This document shows positions 1,082 through 58,765 of a stretch of 64,000 nt of DNA, in pieces. The translations under genes were made by a program, and so were the position numbers. The stretch spans positions 2,819,001-2,883,000 of the forward strand of contig NZ_AP019810.1 of the NCBI RefSeq assembly GCF_013394305.1. Direction: 5' to 3'. The notes under the pieces are model-generated. The model saw nothing but the letters and a program-made list of their open reading frames with translations, made no database searches and was not told where the DNA came from. Position 1 is the stretch's first letter, and every line of letters begins with the position of its first letter. This stretch comes from Enterococcus mundtii. Lineage in GTDB: Bacteria > Bacillota > Bacilli > Lactobacillales > Enterococcaceae.

Positions 1082-1933
1082 ATGCAATATTTTTATTCTT
1101 TAGAGAACGAACGAAAACTAATTGAGCATCCGCTCTTCCAACCAATGATCGACTATTTGATCGAACAAGGCTCACAAGAGGTCATTTTACGCCAACTAAA
1201 GAAAGCATTTCCCCAAAAGAAAATGGAACACTTTCTTGATCAAATGATCGATAGTGGCTTGATCATCCGAGAAAATCGCCGTTACCGCTGTGCTTTTCCG
1301 GTCTATGACCAAGGAGATTTCCAAACAGAGATCAATCAACTGACTAAAGAATTGATCAATGAATTAATGAAACAACCGGAACACCTCAGAAATCTCTTCT
1401 TATCAGAAGAAATTTGGGATTTCTGCCATGAAACAACGTCTCCTTATTTTTATGCCACTACTTTTTCAGTTCCTACGATTGTGCGGTTGGAAGCAGGAAA
1501 TGAGAACTATCGCTTTGTAACGCTCAACCAAGGAGAGAACGTGGTTTCTTTACCAACGTATTTCCATCTCCAAAAACAGCAAACCCCACTATATGAGGAA
1601 TTTCAGGCTCTAGGGCAGTTGATTGGCGATGTGAATGAAACCTATTTTTTTGACCAAATAGAAGTGATTATCGAACGAATTTGTGAAAACAAATACAAAA
1701 AACGCCGTGAGTCGATTTTTTTAGATGCCTTATTATTAGCGGGGGTTGTTGTCCAACAGGAGCAATATCAATTGCTCTTGCCTGTAACAGAGGATAGGAA
1801 TGACGCATTGCTACAAAAATATAAACCTTCAACGGAAACACCGATGCAAGCCGCCTTTATTAAAGAACAAGCGTTGGTCGAAGTCATGCGGCAATTGGAT
1901 TTAAAATCTTATTCTTATATCAAGAAAATATGA
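1082..1933 (+). CDS. Conserved hypothetical protein, possibly DUF1803 family
   Basis: A 283-residue soluble protein with no signal peptide or membrane segment. The N-terminus reads MQYFYSLENERKLIEHPLF and leads into a short winged-helix-like stretch, with ILRQLKKAFP and then DQMIDSGLIIRENRRYRCAFP at roughly residues 36-78. The rest is mixed alpha/beta. Genes with this N-terminal pattern, annotated DUF1803, are often next to ppaC in streptococci and enterococci. That family name is my recollection and I have not checked it. It has its own start after the ppaC terminator. No function is proposed. Confidence 0.75.
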   Translation: MQYFYSLENERKLIEHPLFQPMIDYLIEQGSQEVILRQLKKAFPQKKMEHFLDQMIDSGLIIRENRRYRCAFPVYDQGDFQTEINQLTKELINELMKQPEHLRNLFLSEEIWDFCHETTSPYFYATTFSVPTIVRLEAGNENYRFVTLNQGENVVSLPTYFHLQKQQTPLYEEFQALGQLIGDVNETYFFDQIEVIIERICENKYKKRRESIFLDALLLAGVVVQQEQYQLLLPVTEDRNDALLQKYKPSTETPMQAAFIKEQALVEVMRQLDLKSYSYIKKI

Positions 1934-1944
1934 CCTCAACAATT

Positions 1945-2082
1945 GTCGGGGATCCCGCCGACTAAAACCGAAAAAAGTGAGAACAGAAGGAACTACTTCG
2001 AAAAATCAGGCAGCATCCACAAAAATTAGAAAATAATTTTTGTGGATGCTGCCTGATTTCACGAGACTTAACACTCCTGTCC
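1945..2082 (-). repeat. Dispersed palindromic repeat, copy C (EFAR-like)
   Basis: Its sequence, read on the minus strand, aligns with the intact copy at 58534-58695. Shared blocks on the plus strand are TAAAACCGAAAAAA (TATAACCGAATAAA in copy A), CTTCGAAAAAT and the CATCCACAAAAATT hairpin. The central stem pairs 2000-2026 with 2034-2060 almost perfectly. It lies between convergent genes and probably terminates transcription from both sides. Outer limits are approximate. Confidence 0.7.
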
Positions 2083-2096
2083 AGATCTCATTGGGA

Positions 2097-7793: not shown

Positions 7794-7894
7794 AAAAAAG
7801 CAACTGTGGCTGGAACATGGTTTCTCTCGCACTATCTAAAACCAGATAAACGGCGAGAAATAAATACTTCTGTTCCGACCTCAGTTGCTTTTTA
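7794..7894. repeat. Dispersed palindromic repeat, copy D (short form)
   Basis: The outer stem AAAAAAGCAACTG (7794-7806) pairs with CAGTTGCTTTTTAT at the right end, with GGAACA/TGTTCC inside it. The enclosed hairpin TTTCTCTCGC...GCGAGAAA carries TAAAACCAGATAAACGG in the loop, close to the TATAACCGAATAAACGG block of copy A read on its minus strand. It lacks the GGCGCC hairpin module. It separates convergent genes and can act as a bidirectional terminator. Confidence 0.65.
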
Positions 7895-20285: not shown

Positions 20286-20368
20286 TGCAGACGATGGGAT
20301 TTGAACCCACACGAGCTTACGCTCACAAGACCCTCAATCTTGCATGTCTGCCGTTCCATCACGTCTGC
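20286..20368 (-). tRNA. tRNA-Leu (anticodon GAG)
   Basis: Read on the minus strand the acceptor stem pairs GCAGACG with CGTCTGC. The anticodon stem CAAGA/TCTTG encloses the loop TTGAGGG, giving anticodon GAG (complement at 20333-20335). A long variable arm (GTGAGCGTAAGCTCG) typical of leucine tRNAs and a T loop GTTCAAAT are present. CCA is not encoded. Confidence 0.93.
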
Positions 20369-37274: not shown

Positions 37275-37566
37275 GTACCAAACGAAAATAAATATCATTC
37301 AACCAACCATAGATAATAGTTATCGATATAAACTTGGCTTTAGCAACCTTTTCCTTTATGGGATTGGTTGCTTTATTTCATAAATACTATTTTGTTTGCT
37401 AGGATGAAACTATGAGGTTTATCAAGTCTAATCTAAAGATAAATCCTTCATGAGAAAAACAAGAAATATAGTTGTAAGTTTCAGAAACAAGTGTTAGACT
37501 GTTTTCATCGTTTAAAAATTAAAATATTTTGTTTCTAAAAATATCATTTATCAATCGAATATCGAA
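37275..37566. other. Intergenic region between the barrel gene and the riboswitch
   Basis: About 290 AT-rich bases. It contains a terminator at 37341-37379 (AGCAACC with GGTTGCT) and must hold the promoter of xpt-pbuX; I could not pick a convincing -35/-10 pair. No ORF is seen. Confidence 0.5.
37341..37379 (+). terminator. Intrinsic terminator
   Basis: TAGCAACC pairs with GGTTGCTT around a loop of about 17 bases, followed by TATTTC. Confidence 0.6.
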
Positions 37567-37636
37567 CAACTTATATATCGTCATAATAAGGATGACAGTT
37601 TCTAGCCAGCACCGTAAATGTTGGACTATAAGTGAA
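37567..37636 (+). promoter_or_regulatory. Guanine riboswitch aptamer
   Basis: A purine aptamer: P1 ACTTATA/TATAAGT, P2 around TCGTCATAATAAGGATGAC, the conserved joint CAGTTTCTA, P3 with CACCGTAAATG and the tail GGACTATAAG. The specificity base before TATAAG is C, which selects guanine or hypoxanthine over adenine. It is followed by a terminator and xpt-pbuX, its classical target. Confidence 0.93.
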
Positions 37637-37646
37637 AAAGTAGTGA

Positions 37647-38315
<669 letters not shown>

Positions 38316-39622: not shown

Positions 39623-39668
39623 TGATGTAGATTACTTTTATAAATCATAGCTAGTAATTGAATAAGGT

Positions 39669-39730
39669 AGAGACCTTTTTAGCTTAGAGAGATAAGGCGC
39701 CATCCACGAAATTTGTTTTTCAAATTTTTG
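39669..39730 (+). repeat. Dispersed palindromic repeat, copy B, left part
   Basis: GATAAGGCGCCATCCACGAA followed by ATTTGTTTTTCAAATTTTTG matches the left half of the central hairpin of copy A (58561-58605). The other half resumes after the insertion sequence, at 41246. The last eight bases, AATTTTTG, are the left target duplication. Confidence 0.85.
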
Positions 39731-39769
39731 GGCTCTTTGTCAATAAGGACTGATGAGTTGTGCAAAATC

Positions 39770-39811
39770 AAATCTGGGTCAGAATGAACCTCATTCTGGC
39801 TCAGATTTTTT
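39770..39811. terminator. Bidirectional terminator inside the insertion sequence
   Basis: AATCTGGGTCAGAATGA pairs with TCATTCTGGCTCAGATT (one mismatch) with T runs on both strands. It ends the transposase transcript and can also stop transcripts from pbuX. Confidence 0.82.
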
Positions 39812-39812
39812 G

Positions 39813-41108
39813 TTATCTTACTTTGATTAATTGATTGATCAAAAAGATTCTAATTCTCATGTTCTCGAATGATTTAAATCCGTAGGATACTCGTTTCATT
39901 GTCTTTATGTGGGTATTCTTCGCTTCTATTTTTCCATTGGAATAAGGATAGATCATTGCGTTGGTGATGCCTTCTTCATAGGTCAGAAGGTTTTGAAGCT
40001 TTTCCCGAAAGCTGTCATCCAACGTTTCGGGAAGTTCTGCTAATAAGGAGAAAAATAAGTCAGGGTCTTTGTCTCGAAAGGCTTCAACTAATTCATGAAA
40101 AAAGGGATACGCCTCCTTTAGGGGCGTAGAAAACTCAAGCAATCGATCAATCATCATTGCTTCAGTAAGAAATGGGTATTTTGGTGCTCGGAAACTTTTC
40201 CATGTTTTGTATTCATAATGGTTGATGTTTGCACGATTTTTTAGCAAAAAGCGCCAGTTCTTTTTCAGTTTTTCTGCCTGGCTTTTCTGTCCTGCTTTAC
40301 GAAGTTCATTCATTTCACGGATACGCAACTCATTGAACGCTTGATTCATGTGTTTGACAATATGAAACCGATCAATCACTATTTTCGCATTTGGCAGAAC
40401 ACGTTTGGTGAGCTGGAAGTAGGCGGCGTTCATGTCTGTCACCAAGAATTCTACTTCTTCTGGATTGGTACACTTTAAGAAATAGCTTGTTAATCGAGGT
40501 AATTTACGCGTAGGCAAAACATCTATTAATTTTCCTGTTTCGCCATCTGCGCAAATAAAGCTCATTTTATCTTCTATGGAAGCATGCGAACGAAATTCAT
40601 CAACCATCAATACTCTTGGGAGAATCTTCTTAGATTGCTTTGGTAAATAGCTTTTAAACTCTTTCAATGTACGAATAACAGTGGTCAAAGATACCTGACA
40701 GCTTTTCGCAATAAAAGATAAAGATACTTTTTCAGTCAGTAAAGAAGCAATTTTATATCTAACATGATTTGCGATTGAATGTCTGGATTGGACAAAATAA
40801 CTTTGAGCAGTCCAATGGGTTCGGCAGTTTTTACAGGTATAGCGCTGCTTTTTTAGGCGCATAACCAAAGGCATATGATTGTATTGTTCAAAACGGACAA
40901 TCGTTTCTTTTTTTCCATTTTTCACTATAATTGCTTTCCCGTTTCCATCTACCACAGTAGAACCACAACTTCTACAAGCACGAGGAGTAGGCGAGAGAAC
41001 AGCATCGACGACCAACGTCTTTTTCTTCTGAAGGGTCTCGTAAGAGACCTCTGTAATCATCAAATCTTTCTCTATTATTCTCAGCATTTTTTTGATAGAA
41101 TCATTCAT
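39813..41108 (-). CDS. ISL3-family transposase
   Basis: A 431-residue DDE transposase. An N-terminal zinc ribbon (CRSCGS, then CKNCR) is followed by a helix-turn-helix (VSLSFIAKSCQVSLTTVIR) and a catalytic domain with ILPRVLMVDEFRSH, EFLVTDMNAAYF, KIVIDRFHIVKHMNQAF and the final glutamate in YSNGKIEAKNTHIKTMKR. These are the D, D and E regions. AGAGGA lies upstream of the ATG. Full length for the family and without frameshift, so it is probably active. Confidence 0.95.
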   Translation of the reverse strand: MNDSIKKMLRIIEKDLMITEVSYETLQKKKTLVVDAVLSPTPRACRSCGSTVVDGNGKAIIVKNGKKETIVRFEQYNHMPLVMRLKKQRYTCKNCRTHWTAQSYFVQSRHSIANHVRYKIASLLTEKVSLSFIAKSCQVSLTTVIRTLKEFKSYLPKQSKKILPRVLMVDEFRSHASIEDKMSFICADGETGKLIDVLPTRKLPRLTSYFLKCTNPEEVEFLVTDMNAAYFQLTKRVLPNAKIVIDRFHIVKHMNQAFNELRIREMNELRKAGQKSQAEKLKKNWRFLLKNRANINHYEYKTWKSFRAPKYPFLTEAMMIDRLLEFSTPLKEAYPFFHELVEAFRDKDPDLFFSLLAELPETLDDSFREKLQNLLTYEEGITNAMIYPYSNGKIEAKNTHIKTMKRVSYGFKSFENMRIRIFLINQLIKVR

Positions 41109-41245
41109 ATAGCATATCGTCCTCTCAGTTGTTTATTTTGTGGTGATTTAATCATACTAGAGAACGATATGTTTTTTAATACCTAAAATGAAAATGGGAC
41201 TGAAGAATCAATTCTGATTCATCAGTCCCATAAATTATAGAGCCA

Positions 41246-41340
41246 ATTTTTGTGGAGGGTGCCTTATTTTCGAAGAGTTTACTTTTGTTCCTGCCGTTTA
41301 TTCGATTTTAGGTGGTGCGAGAAGACGAATGTCCCAGACG
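41246..41340 (+). repeat. Dispersed palindromic repeat, copy B, right part
   Basis: AATTTTTGTGGAGGGTGCCTTA completes the hairpin begun at 39681, and TTCGAAGAGTTTACTTTTGTTCC, CCGTTTATTCGATTTTAGGTGG and GACGAATGTCCC follow in the same order as in copy A. Confidence 0.85.
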
Positions 41341-41479
41341 AATTTTTTAATTGTAGCAAATTCATGAACAGATTCTCTCTGCATTTTGGATACATGAAGA
41401 AAAAGTGTTATATCCTTAAAAAAAACAAATGATTTGGACCAGAAAAAACTTGATTTCAACAAGCAAGAGTTGATTTGTT

Positions 41480-58533: not shown

Positions 58534-58695
58534 GAGAGGTCGGGACGGAAGTGTTCAGCCTCGAGAAATAAGGCGCCATCCACGAAAATTGTTTTTTAAA
58601 TTTTTGTGGATGGCGCCTTATTTTTCGAAGAGGTTACTTTTGTTCCCACCGTTTATTCGGTTATAGGTGGGTCAGGTGAACGAATGTCCCGCTCC
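58534..58695 (+). repeat. Dispersed palindromic repeat, copy A (intact)
   Basis: About 160 bp folding as a branched structure. The outer stem pairs CGGGAC (58541-58546) with GTCCCG near 58686-58691. Hairpin 1 pairs CGAGAAATAAGGCGCCATCC with its near-perfect complement around an AAAATT/AATTTT loop (58562-58627). Hairpin 2 pairs CCCACC with GGTGGG (58645-58671). It ends in a T run, so it can terminate guaC. Shape and size agree with the EFAR repeats known from E. faecalis, from memory and not checked. Confidence 0.8.
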
Positions 58696-58765
58696 CTTTT
58701 TTTACATTTTCTTTCTTTTTGAAACTAAGCTACAATAGTAGAAAGTAAATATTTGGAGAATGCAC

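Follow-up and report, generated by a model that had tools for sequence, protein, structure and literature searches.

We propose that a short palindromic repeat, present at many places in the genome of Enterococcus mundtii, is an EFAR-type non-autonomous element whose movement depends, in trans, on a DDE transposase from a clade of the IS1182 family with ends close to GAGnnTGGGACAnnAG, and we put the probability of this reading at about 80%. Where filled and empty alleles of one site can be compared, they differ in carrying either the element or a host stem-loop, which is lost about symmetrically and with no duplication of the target.

The window, by which we mean the whole 64,000-nucleotide stretch of DNA that was analysed (G000:C1:2819001-2883000), belongs to a source genome of 3.30 Mb in 4 contigs. 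A sequence-only reading of it had described a repeat family with four copies (A to D), and this family is confirmed as real, and not a set of chance hairpins, in that a covariance model, R1, recovers all four copies and finds at least 100 places genome-wide. The copies underlying R1 are 28 of 30 loci of the same genome, copy A included; L028 and L029, which have diverged ends, were excluded.

Anatomy, window copies and spread

The element is about 160 bp long and carries no transposase; repeats built around GGGACA form its ends, and it has one hairpin in the centre and another at the right end. From its left end, GAGGTCGGGACAGAAGTGTT, it passes through the central hairpin, AAATAAGGCGCCATCCAC ... 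GTGGATGGCGCCTTATTT, and a small GAAG/CTTC hairpin to CGCCGTTTATTCGG and then to the right end, which reads GTGTCTGGGACATTAGTCCT from the outside. Across the 28 copies 96.3% of paired cells pair, and both-side changes in the stems were counted in 19 cells against 4.7 in shuffles, an excess that related copies can reach even without structure. When copies from other species were aligned (one set of 22 from 12 genomes, and another of 8 from E. faecalis plus 5 from elsewhere in the family), the letters of the central stem differed yet pairing was kept, and the right end frequently took the form of a longer, terminator-like hairpin. In the source genome L180, L182, L183, L185, L187 and L189 form a lower-scoring subfamily, which starts with GAGGTTGTGA and not GAGGTCGGGA. 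Chance-size reading frames of 70-89 amino acids overlap 8 of 33 copies in the source genome, and the element is taken as non-coding.

The features of the window are as follows, in window coordinates:

58536..58696, + strand: copy A, full-length (R1 E 2.5e-41)
39660..39730, + strand: copy B, left part (R1 match 39664-39864, E 3.6e-7; left edge from alignment and sequence reading)
39731..41244, - strand: ISL3-family IS splitting copy B, not part of the element (NF033550, 321.9 bits; PF01610)
41245..41341, + strand: copy B, right part (R1 match 41190-41341, E 5.6e-15)
1930..2089, - strand: copy C, full-length, right end diverged (R1 E 2.3e-24)
7806..7882, - strand: copy D, shortened, without the central hairpin (R1 E 1.6e-8)
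7795..7806, unstranded: left arm of copy D, AAAAAGCAACTG (inverted repeat I9 and sequence)
7882..7893, unstranded: right arm of copy D, CAGTTGCTTTTT, pairing with 7795-7806 (inverted repeat I9 and sequence)

Copy A is followed by a retained host T-run (58697-58703), and its site is filled in G007 and empty in G012, where a 26-nt hairpin stands in the element's place. Copy B had been reported as two pieces, which it is, and the cause is now seen to be the insertion of the ISL3-family IS, with an 8-bp duplication, into one element: the transposase reading frame lies at 39813-41108 on the - strand, the duplicated AATTTTTG surrounds the IS (first copy 39723-39730, second 41245-41252), and at the orthologous sites of G012 and G007, where the IS is absent, copy B is unbroken and its two flanks overlap by 8 bp. 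Copy C stands as a copy, with its limits moved from 1945-2082 to the 1930-2089 given by R1; its site is also filled in G012 and G007, and its flanks do not pair, giving the lowest score of 31 copies.

The region of copy D is colinear in G012. An outer stem of its own had been ascribed to this copy, and by analogy with the sites, 16 in number, that are compared below, the stem (AAAAAGCAACTG/CAGTTGCTTTTT) reads better as the retained arms of a host terminator. The accompanying idea that modules assemble independently also gives way, since L205 of the source genome, which has no central hairpin, is orthologous to the full-length L171 in G007, and L084 and L216, also shortened, have full copies as their orthologues, so that the reduced forms are explained more simply by internal deletion at a later time.

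With copy A as the query, 40 of 112 candidates in the source genome were scored. R1 gave 149 matches there at E<=0.1 (150 of 1901 candidates scored), which merge into at least 100 distinct places, with copy B counted twice, and every one of the top 65 matches (at least 71 bits) is a separate place. Across the genus R1 matched all 16 genomes, and with stricter filters it matched 74 of 106 Enterococcaceae genomes, in 13 of 17 genera. An exact 23-base pattern of the repeat occurs in 17 stretches of named genome contigs, from which the record of the source genome itself was perhaps left out, and all are of Enterococcus mundtii (Pe161, CVM N55263); weaker DNA matches to the repeat (72%) were found on Lactiplantibacillus plasmids. 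Searched against Rfam with gathering thresholds, the 64-kb window has two matches, neither of them at a repeat copy. Rfam places a purine riboswitch aptamer (RF00167, 62.6 bits) at 37551-37648 and a tRNA (RF00005, 49.4 bits) at 20286-20368 on the - strand.

Element and host stem-loop as alleles of one site

Orthologous sites were sought for copy A in 16 genomes, for 18 further copies of the source genome in G012 and G007, and for 22 tags taken from copies of the source genome, G007 and G012 in four genomes. Among the four E. mundtii-group genomes (G000, G007, G008 and G012) both a filled and an empty allele were found at 16 sites (A, L004, L005, L006, L008, L051/L086, L174, L161, L175, L088, L169, L182, L183/L220, L180, L185 and L189/L225), a polymorphism which supports mobility. 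Many other copies were filled wherever compared, and six comparisons gave shortened elements, not empty sites. Excluded from the 16 are L009/L123, L195/L228, L170, L171, L125 and L114, all compared with a shortened element as the other allele, and L187 against L212, where R1 covers positions 1-133 only and the alignment is unclear. Five of the six members of the subfamily starting with GAGGTTGTGA, all except L187, are among the filled and empty sites.

The empty allele has a terminator-like hairpin at the position of the element at 16 of 16 sites, with a minimum free energy of -13.2 to -29.9 kcal/mol, and the 8 nt that follow contain 4 to 7 T. These hairpins fold with z of -2.5 to -9.7 relative to dinucleotide shuffles (an initial set of shuffles preserved base composition only and was repeated with dinucleotides preserved), and the number of shuffles out of 200 that folded as well was zero at 14 sites, one at L051 and two at L183. 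The filled allele lacks this hairpin or the upper part of it but keeps the outer arms and T-rich stretch, and the loss amounts to 14-52 nt of the target hairpin; at site A the 26-nt hairpin is lost and the T-run retained, and at L006 the loss is limited to 14 nt of upper stem and loop.

The loss is centred on the hairpin. At all 14 measurable sites its centre lies no more than 4 nt from the hairpin axis, against 16.5% of control placements in which the same deletion was slid along the same short stretch, and the median offset is 0.75 nt, although offsets are good to a few nt, several of the flanks having 1-5 unaligned junction bases. L183 and L180 stand outside these 14, their left flanks differing between genomes. 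Direct repeats at the junctions average 1.4 nt, compared with 1.45 nt for mismatched flank pairs, and none exceeds the control, so that no target duplication was detected at these junctions.

Flanks of filled copies in the source genome tell of the same kind of target. Over 31 copies (B and D left out) a copy's own flanks pair better than flanks taken across copies (mean 9.16 against 7.33; 0 of 20000 permutations as good), and taken singly the pairing is clear in only 8 of the 31. In other species, the gene end that corresponds to site A has no R1 match at E<=0.01 in 10 of 12 loci and a weak match in 2 of 12, so the outgroups alone do not settle the order of events at site A. The two weak matches, L067 and L073 (in G002 and G004), may be independent insertions at one terminator.

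Candidate transposase and rival explanations

Of the 16 genomes of the genus, 12 have matches to PF13751, and two IS1182 clades, here T031 and T140, are relevant. The T140 type is represented in G005 by four copies of a 1.8 kb IS of the IS1182 family with transposase (NF033551, 413.5 bits), of which two have a long open frame and the others broken frames, and its transposase is 99.3% identical to one on an E. hirae plasmid. All four copies have matching ends, with GAGTGGGACAATAGT at both, and the right end has a subterminal AAATAAG..CTTATTT hairpin like the central hairpin of the element. Compared with this IS end, the right ends of the elements in the source genome agree at a mean of 13.7 of 20 bases (shuffled 7.3, P 0.0001), which is strong, and the left ends at a mean of 11.4 of 20 (shuffled 7.9, P 0.009), which is modest. 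A relative in G013 has GAGCTTGGGACATAAGTCC at both sides, G010 holds an internally deleted derivative, about 680 bp long, in which both ends are present, and relatives on three plasmids, from E. faecium, Staphylococcus epidermidis and S. haemolyticus, have GGGACA motifs to either side of the gene.

The source genome itself has a decayed T140 right end adjoining a weak element match (L265; 70.8% over 250 bp). Since no intact T140-type gene was found in G000, G007, G008 or G012, it is through their ends only that the elements may be tied to a T140-type transposase. At L131 and L152 of G005, two copies of the GGGACA-ended IS adjoin remnants resembling parts of the element, as if elements were targets too.

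That no intact T140-type gene was found in the four E. mundtii-group genomes also speaks for a different mover, namely that the same stem-loop-replacing elements are moved in E. mundtii by the T031 clade, or by a transposase which our searches missed. T031-type copies (L031 in the source genome; IS1182 family) are intact in the source genome, G007 and G012 and are likewise located in hairpins. However, their ends (CAGACTGTAGACAAA, and CAGATTGTAGACAAA in G007) are unlike those of the element, and at seven loci (L031, L126, L130, L132, L137, L141 and L149) the IS lies between two whole hairpin copies with no loss, as if the terminator-like hairpin were the duplicated target of this IS; the decayed T140-type end in the source genome also counts against this account, which we consider unlikely. 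The intact IS1182 member of the source genome (L031), having other ends and being flanked by two hairpin copies, was dropped as a partner.

There are two further accounts. Gene-end placement, and hairpins kept with both-side changes in excess of shuffles, would suit fixed regulatory or terminator RNA structures under selection, but such structures are contradicted by the filled and empty alleles at 16 sites in one species group and sit poorly with some 100 near-alike copies at unrelated genes, and we regard this explanation as highly improbable. We give just as little credence to REP-like repeats moved by a Y1 transposase of IS200/IS605 or RAYT type, for which hairpins near the ends and the lack of target duplication may be cited, against inverted end repeats that resemble those of a DDE IS1182 element and a target hairpin that is replaced. 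Movement in trans by a transposase of an IS1182-family clade with GGGACA-type ends is our preferred reading.

Probable kinship with EFAR and a possible role in termination

The EFAR repeats of E. faecalis (Venditti et al. 2007, FEMS Microbiol Lett) are reportedly palindromic, mostly about 170 bp long and built with two stem-loops, with units that are said to fall into 16 sequence types. Their empty sites are reported to be unrelated stem-loops of 24-37 bp, mostly deleted on insertion with part of the stems staying, so that stem-loop replacement has reportedly been described for EFAR before. A named E. faecalis record, NZ_CP143580.1, contains 12 R1 matches, and the 8 that were aligned agree module by module. 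Because the E. faecalis copies match in this way and because of the reported behaviour of EFAR, we provisionally class the repeat as EFAR-type and IS1182-dependent. Kinship with EFAR had earlier been raised as a question: the mobile palindromic family and the E. faecalis homology both stand, and the putative name EFAR draws on this homology and on the reported description. The two are alike in size (about 160 bp here against about 170), in hairpins and in a hairpin target that is lost with its arms kept; they differ in species and stem letters, and the right end is shorter in E. mundtii than in E. faecalis. A search of the open-access literature found no paper linking IS1182 to these repeats, and none on EFAR itself. 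EfaRFI (PMC4894674) is an unrelated name and not EFAR.

Stem-loop replacement is described for IS1272, of the IS1182 family (PMC5678879). For TnSha1/IS1272 the description includes partial loss of the hairpins and blunt ends, and the targets include a terminator (PMC4923244). These staphylococcal elements resemble ours in having stem-loop targets, symmetric or partial hairpin loss, no duplication and terminators among their targets, but they carry a transposase, which the E. mundtii element does not. The T140 IS of G005 and the E. hirae plasmid shares the GGGACA end repeats, the subterminal AAATAAG..CTTATTT hairpin and the T-rich right flank; it differs in its 1.8 kb with transposase, and the search of the E. 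mundtii-group genomes gave no intact copy of it. Bacterial MITEs (PMC2229807) are likewise short, intergenic, present in many copies and share their ends with IS, whereas the E. mundtii element shows no target duplication and loses the target hairpin. The classical MITE was dropped as a label for the element, since junction repeats no longer than those of mismatched pairs mean that there is no target-site duplication.

The setting of the copies was analysed for 33 full-length copies of the source genome taken as loci (score at least 60), using crude gene calls. All four window copies had been said to sit just after genes, and this holds more widely: 17 of the 33 lie between convergent genes and 15 between tandem genes, 12 of these pointing along transcription and 3 against it, one has no right-hand call, and none of the 32 classified copies lies between divergent genes. 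In 25 of 33 copies the 8 nt beyond the right end include 5 or more T (background 11%, which includes coding DNA), and in 12 of 33 the left end is preceded by 5 or more A (background 10%). When the 33 copies were folded, 11 formed an outer stem, 15 a local right-end hairpin and 23 one or both; as the remaining 10 fold neither way, substitute termination is not supported for all copies. From these folds a role of the element as a substitute terminator is plausible.

In the mechanism that we envisage, the transposase would recognise the shared ends and join them to an extruded target hairpin at its feet, in the way modelled for IS1272. The end hairpin of the element, or its paired ends, coming directly before the retained T-run, would then form a substitute terminator; insertion would in that case be nearly neutral, and this could be how some 100 sites were reached. 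Shortened copies such as D would derive from later loss of the central hairpin.

Taken further, these would be mobile terminators, an IS1182-driven family that across the Enterococcaceae swaps intrinsic terminators for its own end hairpin and reuses the host T-run, such that a transposon may have rewritten a sizeable share of the terminators in a genome while costing the host little; we judge the chances of this broader view to be evenly balanced. Stem-loop-replacing transposition can be read here at 16 sites within one species group, and a likely transposase family can be named for non-autonomous elements. This makes it possible to test how a transposase recognises a stem-loop target, and whether the exchange of terminators affects read-through between neighbouring genes.
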